The position numbers were made by a program, and so were the translations under genes. A stretch of 64,000 nt of DNA from positions 1 to 64,000 of the forward strand of contig JAUIGU010000019.1 of assembly GCA_030432595.1 (NCBI GenBank), given 5' to 3'. The DNA comes from Phycisphaerae bacterium. Its GTDB lineage: Bacteria; Planctomycetota; Phycisphaerae; Phycisphaerales; Phycisphaeraceae. The first letter of the stretch is position 1, and every line of letters starts with the position of its first letter. The notes under the pieces are model-generated. The model was not told the origin of the DNA. It saw nothing but the letters and a program-made list of their open reading frames with translations, and ran no database searches. Below are positions 9,456 through 51,728 of this stretch, one piece after another.

Positions 9456-9940
9456 GGAAAACGCAGAAAAATCAGGAATCGCAAGAAACGCAGGAAAAGA
9501 AACCTTGCGTTATGGCTTTGGTTTTCTGTTGCGTCTGGTCCGCGCGACGATGGCCTTGGTGATGACGAGAAGCTGCTCCGCTTCGTCGCGCAGGTCCGCC
9601 AACCGGGCGGATTCGACGTATTCCATACGCTCGATCACACGTAGCCAGTAGCGGACTTCCGACAAATTCTTTGCCGCGATGCCCAGGCACTTTAAGAAGT
9701 CCCGCACACTCAACGACTCATCCGCCTCGGCAAATTGCGCCCCAGGGGACGAACCGGCGCCGACCAGTTGATCGATCAGGCGACGCGGACGCCGATCACT
9801 CTCCAACGCCTCCGCCAAACGCATCACGCGTACCGTGAATTCAATCGCACGCTCGTGCAGATCCCCCTAAAGCCTTCCATGGCTCACAGTCGGTTTTCCT
9901 GCGTTTCTTGCGTTTCCTGAATTTCCTGCGTTTCTGGATT
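9454..9940. mobile_element. Inverted-array element IA-2 carrying a four-helix-bundle gene
   Basis: The left arm (about 9454-9500) and right arm (about 9892-9940) each hold four or five copies of a 9-nt unit of CAGGAAACG type, oriented towards each other. Read inward the two arms align over about 36 nt (CAGGAA.CGCAAGAAACG). Between them lies one small gene. The right arm also forms the C-terminal tail (QEIQETQETQEN) of the neighbouring membrane protein. Confidence 0.75.
9510..9827 (-). CDS. Four-helix-bundle protein (23S rRNA IVP / S23 family), probable 5' frameshift
   Basis: 105 residues from the in-frame GTG. Resembles the small all-helical S23/IVP family (MRLAEALESDRRPRRLIDQL, FLKCLGIAAKNLSEVRYWL, RDEAEQLLVITKAIV). 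Family members have no known enzymatic activity. The first helix seems to begin upstream: the next codons read DLHERAIEFTVRV, in frame after a TAG, whereas a good ATG at 9878-9880 (MEGFRG) is in another frame. Restoring one base in the C5 run at 9863-9867 would join them, so the gene is either frameshifted, phase-variable or a sequencing artefact. It lies alone between inverted 9-nt arrays. Confidence 0.75.
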   Translation of the reverse strand: MMRLAEALESDRRPRRLIDQLVGAGSSPGAQFAEADESLSVRDFLKCLGIAAKNLSEVRYWLRVIERMEYVESARLADLRDEAEQLLVITKAIVARTRRNRKPKP

Positions 9941-14405: not shown

Positions 14406-14502
14406 GTAGCCAGTAGCCGGGAGTCAGTAGTCTGTAGCGAAACATTCCGCGATCCGACTGATTTCTCGCTTCTGTCTACTGACTACTGTCTCCTGACTAC
14501 TC
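14406..14502. repeat. Inverted-array element IA-1 (7-nt units) between tatC and queA
   Basis: Left arm 14406-14440: GTAGCCA GTAGCCG and three more 7-nt units. Right arm 14466-14502, on the opposite strand: AGTAGTC AGGAGAC and three more. The arms are inverted, with about 25 nt between. The queA stop codon TAG falls inside the right arm. Confidence 0.7.
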
Positions 14503-17496: not shown

Positions 17497-17717
17497 CAAT
17501 ACGTCGCCCATGCAGAGGAAATGATCGGCCGATCCAACGGCATGCCGCCATCCTTGCACGCTCGCGGGGGACCGCGCGGGCCTTCCCTGGCACCGACGAC
17601 TATGTTATGGACCCCGCCGCCGGACACCAGCGTAAAGGCACGGATTCCGAGAATCTGCGGGTTTTTCTTAGCCCGCCCCGCCCCAAACCCCGACCGACCC
17701 CTCATGGGAGCGTCCTC

Positions 17718-18170
17718 ATGACCCCACCGACCCCGACCGCACCCGCCACCGGCCCCGCCACCGTCTGCCCGCCGACCGCCGGCACGCTCGTGGCCCGCGA
17801 CGGCGAACAGATCACCCTCGCCCTGCCCGGCTCGGATTATCGGATCGACCTCCAACTCGACGGCCGGCTCGAAGCCGACCTCGGCGACAAAGTCACCGGC
17901 ACGATCCACGCCCGGGCCCAGCGCGTCGACCGCGTCACCGGCGGCGGGCGCTACGTCGAGCCCGTGTTCGGCCGGCCGCGGCGCGTCCAGGGCGTCATCG
18001 TCGGCGGCGACCCGGGCGTCGGGCCGCGCGGCGCGATCTTCGTCGCCGCCGGCAAGGCCACGCTTTCCTGCGAACTCACCGACCCCCGGCAAGCGCTCGC
18101 CGACTTCACCCTGCACCAGATGGTCACCTTCGACGTCAAACGCGGGGCGGGCTTCAGGCCGGGCGGTTGA
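17718..18170 (+). CDS. Hypothetical protein, probably all-beta
   Basis: 150 residues from the ATG at 17718. After a disordered Thr/Pro/Ala-rich start, the pattern (GTLVARDGEQITLALPG, YRIDLQLDGRLEADLGDKV, RVQGVIVGGDP) suggests a small beta-barrel. No family or motif recognised. The stop TGA forms part of the boundary of the GxxExxY cassette (GGTTGAACC), so the last residues may be altered by that insertion. Confidence 0.65.
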   Translation: MTPPTPTAPATGPATVCPPTAGTLVARDGEQITLALPGSDYRIDLQLDGRLEADLGDKVTGTIHARAQRVDRVTGGGRYVEPVFGRPRRVQGVIVGGDPGVGPRGAIFVAAGKATLSCELTDPRQALADFTLHQMVTFDVKRGAGFRPGG

Positions 18171-18612
18171 ACCACAGATTTCACAGATTTCGCAGATCGG
18201 GAATCATGATGTCGGAGCGCGATCCCAGAACCTATGCCGTCATTGGGGCCGCGATGGAGGTGCATCGCGAGCTGGGTCCGGGCTATCTGGAACGGGTGTA
18301 TCAAGATGCGCTAGAAGTCGAATTCAAGGCGCGCGACATCCCTTATCAGCGTGAACGGGTCTTGGCGATCCGATACAAAAGCGTCGTCCTGCCAAGCAGT
18401 TATCGGTCAGACTATGTGTGTTTCGATGATTTGCTCGTGGAAACCAAGGCCCAGAAGGCTTTGACCGATATCGATGGTGCCCAGCTCATCAACTACTTGA
18501 AAGGCACGGGCTTTGAGATCGGCTTGCTGATCAACTTCGGCACGCCTTCGCTCGAGTACCGACGCATGATCCATAGTTCATCTGCGTCATCTGCGTAATC
18601 TGCGGTTGAACC
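18165..18612. mobile_element. Inverted-array element IA-3 carrying a GxxExxY gene
   Basis: Left arm GGTTGAACC then three 9-nt units of CACAGATTT/CGCAGATCG type (18165-18198). Right arm, inverted: GGTTCAACC then three units CGCAGATTA, CGCAGATGA, CGCAGATGA (18576-18612). The enclosed gene is visibly lower in GC than the genes on both sides, and its stop lies within the right arm. Confidence 0.8.
18206..18598 (+). CDS. GxxExxY protein (PD-(D/E)XK nuclease-like superfamily)
   Basis: About 130 residues. The naming motif is present (GYLERVY after HRELGP), as is the YRSDYVCFDDLLVETKAQ segment, whose D...ExK spacing matches the PD-(D/E)XK fold to which this family (PDDEXK_3) is assigned. The end ...GLLINFGTPSLEYRR is typical. 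Biochemical activity of the family is not established. The ATG is at 18206 or 18209. Codon use is AT-richer than neighbours, consistent with transfer. It lies alone between inverted 9-nt arrays, immediately before the UDP-glucuronate decarboxylase gene. Confidence 0.9.
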   Translation: MMSERDPRTYAVIGAAMEVHRELGPGYLERVYQDALEVEFKARDIPYQRERVLAIRYKSVVLPSSYRSDYVCFDDLLVETKAQKALTDIDGAQLINYLKGTGFEIGLLINFGTPSLEYRRMIHSSSASSA

Positions 18613-18615
18613 CCC

Positions 18616-19650
18616 ATGACCGACTCCCACAAACGCGTCCTCGTCACCGGCGGTGCCGGGTTCCTCGGCAGCCACCTCTGCGAACGCCTGGTCTCCGCCG
18701 GGCACGACGTCATCTGCCTGGACAACCTGTTCACCTCGCAGAAGCACAACATCGCCCACCTGCTCGACCAGCCCAACTTCGAGTTCGTCCGCCACGACGT
18801 CACCGAGCCCATCACGCTCGAGGTCGACCTCATCTACAACATGGCCTGCCCGGCGTCGCCCGTGCACTACCAGTACAACCCCATCAAGACCATGAAGGTC
18901 TCCGTCATGGGCGCGATCAACATGCTCGGCATGGCCAAACGCACCGGCGCCCGCATCCTCCAGGCCTCCACCTCCGAGGTCTACGGCGACCCCACCGCCG
19001 AGCACCACCCCCAGAAAGAAAGCTACCGCGGCAACGTCAACCCCATCGGCATCCGCGCCTGCTACGACGAGGGCAAACGCGCCGCCGAGACGCTCTTCTT
19101 CGACTATTGGCGCGAGCACAACGTCGACATCCGCGTCGTCCGCATCTTCAACACCTACGGCCCGCGGATGCACCCCTACGACGGCCGCGTCGTCACCAAT
19201 TTCATCGTCCAGGCCCTCAAGGGCGAGGACCTCACGCTCTACGGCGACGGCTCGCAGACCCGCTCGTTCTGCTACGTCGACGACCTCGTCGATGTCATCA
19301 TGGCCCACATGAACAACGACTCGAAGAGCGGCGACCCGCAGGACGCGTTCGTGGGCCCCGTGAACATCGGCAACCCCGGCGAGTTCACGATCAAACAGCT
19401 CGCCGAGAAGGTCATCGAACTCACGGGCAGCGGCTCCAAACTCACCACGCTGCCGCTCCCCAAAGACGACCCGCTCCAACGCAAGCCCGACATCTCACTG
19501 GCCAAAAAGGAACTCGGCTGGGAGCCCAAGGTCCCGCTCGAGGAAGGCCTGAAGAAAACCATCGCCTACTTCAAGTCCGTCGACCTCGACAGCTTCCGCC
19601 GCCCGACGGACCACACGGCCCACAAAAACAGCGAGCGGTCACGCATCTGA
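18616..19650 (+). CDS. uxs: UDP-glucuronate decarboxylase (UDP-xylose synthase), extended SDR
   Basis: Converts UDP-glucuronate to UDP-xylose. 344 residues. NAD-binding [11 protein letters not shown] at residues 11-21, the subfamily marker [16 protein letters not shown] near 83, STSEVYGDP, and the catalytic Tyr/Lys in [20 protein letters not shown] and [12 protein letters not shown] are also diagnostic. This suggests xylose-containing surface glycans. The start lies 4 nt beyond the cassette's right arm, so its original upstream region has probably been displaced by the insertion. Confidence 0.93.
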
Positions 19651-37856: not shown

Positions 37857-37958
37857 GATTGATGATTGATGAGAGATGATTGATGAATTCAGCACGAATC
37901 TGGGCATACCGCTTTTCGTGCCTTCATTCATCACTCATCAATCAGCATTCATCGATCA
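37857..37958. repeat. Inverted-array element IA-7 (7-nt units) between aguB and aguA
   Basis: Left arm 37857-37890: TTGATGA TTGATGA GAGATGA TTGATGA. Right arm about 37925-37958, inverted: TCGATGA ATGCTGA TTGATGA GTGATGA. The core contains a hairpin GCACGAA...TTCGTGC (37892-37921). Sits inside a probable operon, starting directly after the aguB stop. Confidence 0.75.
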
Positions 37959-37963
37959 GTCCG

Positions 37964-39022
37964 TCACGTCCCGTCCAGGTACCGGTGCAGCAACCCCGCG
38001 TAAGCATCGACGCGGCGGTCGCGGAGGAACGGCCAGCCCTGGCGGTTTTTATCGATGAGCAAGAGGTCGCAGTCGGCAACGAGGACGGCGTCTTCGTCGG
38101 CGGGGGCCTGGGCGAGGATCGCGCCGCCGGGCGCAGCGATGAACGATGAACCCCAGAAGGTGATGTCGTCTTCGCGGCCGTGCCGGTTGACGGCGGCGAC
38201 GAACACGCCGTTGGCGATGGCGTGGCTGCGCTGGATGGTGACCCACGCGTCGCGCTGGCGCTGGTGCTCGGCGGCGTCGTCCTCGGGCTGCCAGCCGATG
38301 GCGGTGGGGTAGCAGATCAGTTGTGCGCCTTGGAGCGCGGTGAGGCGGGCGGCCTCGGGGTACCACTGGTCCCAGCAGACGAGCAGGCCTGTCTTCAGGG
38401 TCTGGGGGCTGGGGCTTGGGGTTTGGGGTTGCGTTCCGGAGTTCGCTTGGGCTTGTGATGTCTGCCCGACCCCAAGCCCCAGCCCCCGAACCCGCGCGAT
38501 GTCGAGGTCGAAGACTTTCCATCCGCCGCGGCGCTCATAGTCGTCGCCGCACGAGGGCGCGTCGCCGGGCGTGAAGTAGTACTTCTCGTAGAAGCGCGGG
38601 TCGTCGGGGATGTGCATCTTGCGGTAGATGCCCATGATGCTTCCCGACGGGTCGATCATGACGGAGGTGTTGTGGTAGAGCCCGGGGGCGCGTTTCTCGA
38701 AGCACGAGCCGGTGAGGAAGATGCCGAGGTCTTTGGCGAGGTCGCAGAGGAATTGCGTGCGCTTTCCCGGGATCGGCTCGGCGAACTTGAAGGCTTCGTC
38801 GCTCTCGACCTGCGGGAAGTACGGGCCGTCGAAGAGTTCCTGGGTGACGACGAGTTGCGCACCCTGCGCCGCCGCGTCGCGGATCATGTCCGCGGCGGTC
38901 TGCCGGTTCTGCTCGACGGTGTGGGTCGGCGGGCAGGCGTGCTGAGTCAACCCGACGCGCACGACACCCCCGGAAGAATCCGCAGAAGTCTTGCTTGATG
39001 ATGTAGACGGTCCGGCCGGCAC
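37964..39022 (-). CDS. aguB: N-carbamoylputrescine amidase AguB, with in-frame repeat insertion
   Basis: Nitrilase-family enzyme converting N-carbamoylputrescine to putrescine. Up to 352 residues (GTG 39022; a start near VVRVGLTQHACP is also possible). Catalytic triad: Glu in VVTQELFDGPYF, Lys in GIYRKMHIPDD, Cys in GLLVCWDQWYPEAARL. Between WKVFDLDIARV and KTGLLVCWDQW about 32 extra residues (roughly 176-208, GLGLGVGQTSQAQANSG onward) are encoded by element IA-8, just before the nucleophile. Family members lack this loop, so activity may be affected. Confidence 0.92.
   Translation of the reverse strand: MPAGPSTSSSKTSADSSGGVVRVGLTQHACPPTHTVEQNRQTAADMIRDAAAQGAQLVVTQELFDGPYFPQVESDEAFKFAEPIPGKRTQFLCDLAKDLGIFLTGSCFEKRAPGLYHNTSVMIDPSGSIMGIYRKMHIPDDPRFYEKYYFTPGDAPSCGDDYERRGGWKVFDLDIARVRGLGLGVGQTSQAQANSGTQPQTPSPSPQTLKTGLLVCWDQWYPEAARLTALQGAQLICYPTAIGWQPEDDAAEHQRQRDAWVTIQRSHAIANGVFVAAVNRHGREDDITFWGSSFIAAPGGAILAQAPADEDAVLVADCDLLLIDKNRQGWPFLRDRRVDAYAGLLHRYLDGT
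38398..38494. repeat. Inverted-array element IA-8 (7-nt G-rich units) inserted in aguB
   Basis: Left arm 38398-38431: TCTGGGG GCTGGGG CTTGGGG TTTGGGG. Right arm 38466-38494, inverted: TTCGGGG GCTGGGG CTTGGGG TCGGG. The insertion keeps the aguB frame without a stop. Each arm has four G runs spaced by 3 nt, a strong G-quadruplex pattern. Confidence 0.85.
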
Positions 39023-50840: not shown

Positions 50841-51521
50841 CTATCGCCTGAGCTTGACCGCCAACTGTTCCCGCAGGGACGCCACCGTGTCGCGCAAGTG
50901 GGTCAGCGCCGCGTCGTTTCCCATGGCCAGCAGTTCGTCGGGGTCGACCGGGTCTCCGTAGACGCAGCCGATGGTGCCGGTGAGCTTCGGCAGCTTCCGT
51001 CCTTTGGGCCAGGCGTCGAACGAGCCCTCGAGCGCCACCGGCACGACCTTGGGCTTGGCGCGTTTGATCAGGAGCATGACGCCGGGCTGGAAGTCGTGGA
51101 CGTGGCCGTCTTCGGTGCGGCCGCCCTCGGGAAACACGAGGACGGCGTGGCCCTGCTTGAGCTTCTCGATGCAGGCCTTCATCGCCTTGAGGTCGCCGGC
51201 CCCGGAGTCCTGGTCGACCGGGATGGCGTCGAAGGGGATGACCAGCGCGCGGTACAGCGCCGAGTCCCACAGGGTTTTTCGCGCGAGCGGCCGGAACTGG
51301 CGTTTGCTGCCGCCGAGGCCGACGACGATGGGGTCGAGGTAGCTCTGGTGGTTGGCGAGCAGGAGCACGGGCCCGGTGTCGGGAATGTTCCGCACGCCGT
51401 AGGCCCGGAACCGGTAGCACGCGACGAACCAGACGAAGGTGATGAAGTGATAGCCCTGCCACCACAGGATGCGGTGGATCGGCGTGCCGGGTTGGCGGGC
51501 GCGGAGGCGGGTCAGAAGCAT
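50841..51521 (-). CDS. plsC: Lysophospholipid acyltransferase (PlsC-like)
   Basis: 226 residues. 1-acylglycerol-3-phosphate acyltransferase-type domain: catalytic HX4D as NHQSYLD (H58, D63), RPLARKTLWDSALYRALV block and VFPEGGRTEDG (substrate Glu). One hydrophobic segment (about 20-35) associates it with the membrane. Probably acts in phospholipid synthesis. Both flanks are inverted-array elements (IA-9 and IA-10). No Shine-Dalgarno or leaderless hexamer is evident. Confidence 0.88.
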   Translation of the reverse strand: MLLTRLRARQPGTPIHRILWWQGYHFITFVWFVACYRFRAYGVRNIPDTGPVLLLANHQSYLDPIVVGLGGSKRQFRPLARKTLWDSALYRALVIPFDAIPVDQDSGAGDLKAMKACIEKLKQGHAVLVFPEGGRTEDGHVHDFQPGVMLLIKRAKPKVVPVALEGSFDAWPKGRKLPKLTGTIGCVYGDPVDPDELLAMGNDAALTHLRDTVASLREQLAVKLRR

Positions 51522-51526
51522 TGGAA

Positions 51527-51728
51527 ACCACAGATGAACACAGATGAACGCAGATTAAGAACGAGAAAAGTCAGCACTCAATCCCGTGAACGCGGAGCAA
51601 ACATCCGTTGACGTCCGACTTCATGGCCTTGCCACCCAATAAGTTCCCGGAGTTCAATCTGTGAACATCTGCGGAATCTGCGGATAAACCAATCATCCGT
51701 GTGTATCGGCGTTCATCGGTGGTTTCAT
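51527..51728. repeat. Inverted-array element IA-10 (CACAGAT units) between plsC and cmk
   Basis: Left arm 51527-51559: ACCACAGATGAACACAGATG then AACGCAGATTAAG. Right side 51654-51728 carries two inverted sub-arrays: GCAGATTCCGCAGATGTTCA-type and ACCACCGATGAACGCCGATA-type. Same unit as IA-3 (CACAGAT) but the roughly 95 bp between holds no gene, as if emptied. The right end encodes the last residues of cytidylate kinase (KPPMNADTHG). Confidence 0.75.

Follow-up and report, generated by a model that had tools for sequence, protein, structure and literature searches.

The window (the whole stretch of 64,000 nucleotides analysed, from a Phycisphaerae bacterium) contains, between two co-directional protein-coding genes, a gene of the GxxExxY family that is framed on both sides by short inverted arrays (Table 1). 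The left array reads GGTTGAACC-ACAGATTTC-ACAGATTTC-GCAGAT and the right array, read inward, GGTTCAACC-GCAGATTAC-GCAGATGAC-GCAGAT. The RCAGAT core is common to both arms, the spacers being unlike (TTC and TTC on the left, TAC and GAC on the right), and GGTTGAACC occurs twice on the + strand, identically and in direct orientation; regarded as an inverted repeat, the two copies have one central mismatch. The sequence RCAGATNNCRCAGAT occurs five times in the window (four times in these arrays and once in the array pair IA-10), compared with 0 expected from 100 dinucleotide-preserving shuffles. The GxxExxY reading frame extends from an ATG at 18206 to a TAA at 18596-18598 and its GC content is 54.5%, against 67.1% for the window. 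The TGA stop codon of the upstream gene sits within the GGTTGAACC of the left end and 5 nt separate the right end from the start codon (ATG) of the epimerase gene downstream; hence, the cassette fills the gap between the two genes. The inverted ends on both sides of the gene resemble terminal inverted repeats of the insertion sequence (IS) type. An initial annotation, made from the sequence alone, had placed a GxxExxY gene of lower GC content between inverted arrays, and in both respects it was correct. Its description of the right arm as (CACAGATTT)n does not hold, the RCAGAT core being kept there with other spacers, nor does the gene end short of the right array, as had been stated, for its last codons run into it. 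A TTGAAC-like sequence is found at both ends of the element (18165-18173 and 18602-18610) and also in or near empty sites of the genomes G136 and G001, which may possibly reflect a target preference.

Table 1. Array-bearing features of the window and the host genes that adjoin the GxxExxY element.
Feature	Position	Strand	Remarks
Upstream host gene	17607..18170	+	No Pfam family matched; annotated start uncertain; stop codon in left end of element
Left inverted array	18165..18197	+	GGTTGAACC end, then 3 RCAGAT units at 9-nt spacing
GxxExxY gene, TIGR04256 / PF13366 (PDDEXK_3), intact	18206..18598	+	D69-E79-x-K81 motif; predicted Cas4/lambda-exonuclease-like fold
Right inverted array	18578..18610	-	3 GCAGAT units, then GGTTGAACC end; overlaps last codons of gene
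Downstream host gene, NAD-dependent epimerase (PF01370/PF16363)	18616..19650	+
PF05635 (23S_rRNA_IVP) sister-type element	9459..9933		Inverted 9-nt arrays (AAACGCAGG); gene match 9567-9854, minus strand
Gene-less inverted 7-nt arrays (CAGTAGT)	14406..14500		Unit shared with PF05635 element L010
Gene-less inverted 7-nt arrays (GATTGAT)	37857..37957		Unit shared with PF05635 element L011
Gene-less inverted 7-nt arrays (GGGGCTTGGGG)	38398..38493		Unit shared with PF05635 element L009; absent at orthologous site of G001
IA-10, gene-less RCAGAT/RCSGAT inverted pair	51520..51727		Absent at orthologous site of G001 (same genus)

The GxxExxY protein is matched by TIGR04256 with 131.2 bits (cut-off 35) and by PF13366 with 122.7 bits (cut-off 22), and its residues D69, E79 and K81, which are invariant among 56 sequences, form on the fold the D...E-x-K motif of PD-(D/E)XK enzymes. 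The solved folds nearest to its structure model (pLDDT 92) are those of Cas4 (SSO0001, 4IC1) and lambda exonuclease, the best Foldseek match, to Cas4 4IC1 (E 2.7e-4, Z 9.0), being a modest one. GxxExxY shares with both enzymes the D-ExK core and a conserved Q; however, at ~130 aa it is much smaller than either, it is only ~19% identical to Cas4, and the partners of these enzymes are not found nearby. On the basis of this model, GxxExxY is predicted to be a minimal Cas4/lambda-exonuclease-like PD-(D/E)XK nuclease. The values of dN/dS between GxxExxY orthologues (0.07-0.11) show that the protein is under purifying selection.

Our analyses have identified seven GxxExxY copies in the source genome (the window copy and six more), of which six, the window copy included, are flanked by inverted short-period arrays, while at the seventh (L002) an inverted pair forms a hairpin just downstream. 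Each copy has a unit of its own (viz. CAGAT, CAGAG/CGGAG, CGGAG, CGAAG, ACGGAG, and CACAAGAA). The seven proteins are at most ~60% identical to one another, and near-identical recent copies are absent. The same genome contains 10 genes for the four-helix-bundle protein PF05635 (S23, the protein of 23S rRNA intervening sequences or IVSs), nine of which are framed by inverted arrays consisting mostly of 7-nt units, each different; flanking inverted repeats are present at 76% of PF05635 genes, compared with 2% in the null. A third small gene (~120 aa), which has no match in Pfam or NCBIfam and only distant plasmid homologues, is located between inverted CGAT/CGGAT arrays in genome G000 (C38 143505-143939, L301). 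In two other genomes, G018 (L324) and G139 (L444), a gene recognised by sequence motifs as DNA polymerase III alpha-like harbours a PF05635 element with inverted arrays; the polymerase frame is open through the whole insert, with the four-helix-bundle gene in another frame, the array units differ between the two genomes, and the insert is absent in G013 and G137 (empty sites L445/L446).

Beyond the source genome, 80 relatives of the window protein (50-64% identical, from about 13 phyla) mostly carry RCAGATT, a core shared with the window element, and a phylum-wide set found with TIGR04256, in which 190 loci were scored, contains further cores that share the general form CC-RC-NNAK. For the 80 loci the cross-paired null is too high, as one core is common to most of them, and the phylum-wide set took their place. 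A flank-to-flank inverted-repeat score of at least 20 is found at 74% of the 190 GxxExxY loci versus 8% of cross-paired flanks, and flanking inverted repeats are present in 76% of the 145 independent contexts to which these loci collapse. By comparison, they occur in none of 253 shifted windows (80-locus set) and in 10% of the genes of the control family ParE. The initial annotation had proposed that its interpretation be checked by asking whether homologues in other genomes lack flanking arrays; these proportions show that most of them do not, and the observation made at the window locus is confirmed and extends far beyond the window. The GxxExxY gene has the same strand as both neighbours at 111 loci and is opposite to both at 13, the neighbours in this count being the longest open frames, which adds noise. 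GxxExxY is nearly absent from plasmids (8 of 72,556 records), has 0 matches in phages, and a protein-pattern search found no relative in viral contigs; a phage or plasmid origin has been rejected on these grounds, and a defence system has been rejected for want of any PADLOC match. Three-unit RCAGATT arrays occur in IMG/VR in 42 stretches of viral-contig DNA (L459-L500), which may be of host or viral origin.

The two arms of an element are related to each other and to the protein encoded between them. When the core is called separately in each arm, the two calls coincide in 53 of 97 elements, compared with 8.5 (maximum 17) after permutation, and on the protein tree, the rows of which are independent contexts, the AGAT core (50 independent sites, about 13 phyla) shows 2 changes versus 31.6 when shuffled. 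Copies in one genome have different cores, and hence the core goes with the protein rather than with the host; judged from these comparisons, the unit core follows the protein clade whatever the host phylum. The orthologous elements L180 and L196 at the MoxR-DUF58 junction of genus g13 (G018 versus G099) differ by AG to GA in the units of both arms with the spacers unchanged, and this alteration of every unit represents a concerted change of the repeat core. The arm sequence TTGAACGCGAAGGTCGCGAAGGGCTCGAAG of the same genus (L274-L293) is present in many dispersed solo copies of ~30 nt, some of them head to head.

Arrays of the same kind are also common without a gene. IA-10, which the initial annotation had described as a gene-less pair with the unit of the window element and likened to a non-autonomous derivative, is a real pair with that core, and its shared core, lack of a gene and absence from the orthologous G001 site fit this description well. 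A permissive scan of 0.84 Mb of genome G000, which includes some GC-rich coding repeats, yielded 113 candidate gene-less pairs, several of which are missing at orthologous sites of the sister species G001; no GxxExxY remnants were detected inside gene-less pairs by HMM. Thus one genome can hold both a gene-bearing copy and gene-less copies with its ends, as for MITEs, and gene-less pairs and solo arms together outnumber gene-bearing elements. Array pairs in G000 are also nested within one another more often than expected (16 versus ~4.4, ~14 of them genuine by inspection), at five sites or more and in up to four layers. G001 shares the outer pair at C17 106881-107134 but lacks the inner RCAGAT pair, which points directly to insertion into a pair already in place. 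Nests of three or four layers with differing cores are seen at C17 102325-102670 (L239:2325-2670), C38 7026-7277 and C38 229842-230079, and the order CAGAG > CAGAT > CAGGAT recurs twice.

The predominance of gene-less pairs and solo arms, together with the finding that two protein families with no relation to each other, and a third small gene, occupy like frames, could be accounted for if the arrays themselves were the mobile part, moved by another enzyme of a host or element as in REP-type hairpins, with GxxExxY, the four-helix-bundle gene and others as trapped passengers. We consider this explanation unlikely, since the unit core tracks the GxxExxY clade across phyla and contexts, whereas a random passenger would be neither conserved with a single core nor so enriched, the value for ParE being only 10%.

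A second alternative places the function of the arrays in RNA, with a stem in the transcript isolating or removing the insert, as in RNase III-cut 23S rRNA intervening sequences, and the arrays retained for pairing. It draws on the relationship of PF05635 elements to S23p IVS elements, on the Coxiella 23S rRNA IVS, in which GACAGAT tandem heptamers precede the S23p ORF, with inverted repeats and excision by RNase III (PMC4990558), and on the presence of the cassettes in operons in the sense direction. However, pairing would demand like bases in the spacers, and only the lengths are kept: in register, the spacers of the two arms are equally long in 164 of 175 cases, compared with 60% between elements with the same core, whereas the spacer bases are alike at 0.51 in register and 0.55 when crossed. 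RNA pairing as the source of arm symmetry has been rejected for this lack of an in-register excess, and the tight link between core and clade is not predicted by the alternative as a whole, which we hold to be quite improbable. The matching of spacer lengths but not of spacer bases instead suggests a protein reading spaced sites rather than a stem maintained by base-pairing, and the retention of geometry without base-pairing is, at the sequence level, what we would take as the mark of protein reading. The end-to-end symmetry extends 5-6 nt past the first unit, and the A/T at position -2 is identical at both ends in 95% of cases versus 41% by chance.

Comparisons of orthologous sites bear on the inheritance of these elements. 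At the window locus the two host genes adjoin in G001, G010, G004 and G009, with neither GxxExxY nor arrays between them. The MoxR-DUF58 junction carries orthologous GxxExxY copies (81% identical) in G018 and G099, no insert in G136 and G139, unrelated inserts in G013 and G138, and non-orthologous GxxExxY copies (41-50% identical) in G000 and a Phycisphaerae genome; another junction has the element in G018 and G099 and is without it in G013, G138 and G139. At the gltB-gltD junction of Verrucomicrobia, seven GxxExxY copies form nearly one clade, an example of insertions that are old and fixed, at one locus through a clade. Inheritance at a fixed locus, which the initial annotation had named as contrary to its proposal, accordingly describes some insertions and does not apply generally. 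The view that GxxExxY is an ordinary vertically inherited accessory gene, its arrays arising by slippage or serving as terminators or attenuators, draws on such fixed locations but is disfavoured and most improbable in the light of the empty orthologous sites in close relatives, the 145 different contexts among 190 loci, and the sharing of core and geometry by the arms of one element but not by the elements of one genome. Target-site duplications were not found (direct repeats of at least 5 nt, 5 own versus 3.2 permuted; 113 elements), and the closest empty sites (~85-94% identity) are too divergent between the genes to fix the exact ends of the elements.

We conclude that the unit at 18165-18612 is probably a small mobile-element-like cassette, the arrays of which are its ends, read by its own GxxExxY protein, with gene-less pairs as derivatives, and the combined evidence points to array-framed GxxExxY genes as small, self-contained mobile elements of a family not described before. 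In the mechanism that we propose, the cassette would consist of an inverted array, the GxxExxY nuclease gene and a second inverted array, each end comprising TTNAWCC and then some three short units, at fixed spacing, of a single core, and the core would be recognised by the element's own protein, which presumably binds and cuts the arrays and drives movement. The cassette would enter tight gaps between co-directional genes, leaving the operon unbroken and able to transcribe the nuclease. Pairs that have this core but no gene would be non-autonomous derivatives, MITE- or REPIN-like, acted on by the protein in trans, and insertion apparently prefers sites that are symmetric or prone to form hairpins, among them the loop of an older array pair. 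This model is supported by the association, the match of core and clade, the presence and absence at orthologous sites, the gene-less relatives, the nesting, the purifying selection and the intact active-site motif. Against it count the lack of target-site duplication and of near-identical copies, the loci fixed in clades, the near-absence from plasmids and phages, the presence of PF05635 and the third gene in like frames, and the modest fold match. The suggestion of the initial annotation that GxxExxY is a candidate for the mobility or repeat copying of the family is favoured by its association with the arrays, but the unrelated four-helix-bundle PF05635, which is not a nuclease, shares the type of frame and hence the nuclease cannot alone drive every array of this kind. 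Overall, that interpretation is partly supported: sequence comparison gives good support, in anatomy and evolution, to a mobile cassette that carries a nuclease and has derivatives without a gene, while its mechanism is a proposal. More tentatively, and with rather less than even confidence, GxxExxY and S23-type proteins could drive two parallel undescribed classes of mobile elements, in which the ends are arrays of units read by the cognate protein, both arms shift with its specificity, and insertion into loops gives rise to nested hairpins.

GxxExxY and the S23/IVP four-helix-bundle family are widespread small proteins, and the unit-specific array frame gives both a testable role, each element being, owing to the tight match of protein clade and core, a ready test of the DNA read by its protein. 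Many gene-less short-repeat hairpins would be explained as derivatives of the two families. The results also bear on the old question of the origin and mobility of 23S rRNA intervening sequences, which, if the two-class reading is true, would be special cases of one class. In the open literature, the scope of our search (which did not extend to subscription papers, preprints and curators' family notes), no prior description of these repeats or families was found and GxxExxY is named by two papers only, in passing in each.

Among known systems, the heptanucleotide repeats of marine Beggiatoaceae, such as TAACTGA, likewise form short arrays of 7-nt units in intergenic DNA near start codons (PMC4679880); unlike the window arrays, they are almost all direct, with one unit per genome, have been read as regulatory, and have no link to a gene family. 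IS elements and MITEs resemble the elements described here in having a gene between two inverted ends, copies that keep these ends but have no gene, and presence or absence at orthologous sites, but here there is no DDE/DDD transposase and no detectable target-site duplication, and the ends are unit arrays that vary from element to element. The 23S rRNA IVSs with S23p are similar in their small ORF within inverted arms, in the heptamer repeats before the ORF, and in being a suspected mobile element (PMC4990558), whereas the window element carries GxxExxY in place of an S23p/PF05635 ORF and is located between protein genes and not inside an rRNA gene. The PF05635 elements are closer kin of the IVSs and, going by its published description, the Coxiella 23S IVS has the appearance of a PF05635 element within an rRNA gene (PMC4990558). 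With the REP/REPIN and RAYT systems (PMC2817692, PMC3116915), these elements share dispersed short intergenic inverted repeats, a repeat matched to a protein, and gene-less copies that are far commoner; however, the protein here is a predicted PD-(D/E)XK nuclease and not a tyrosine transposase, and the gene itself is enclosed, at each end, by a tandem array whose unit is specific to the element.
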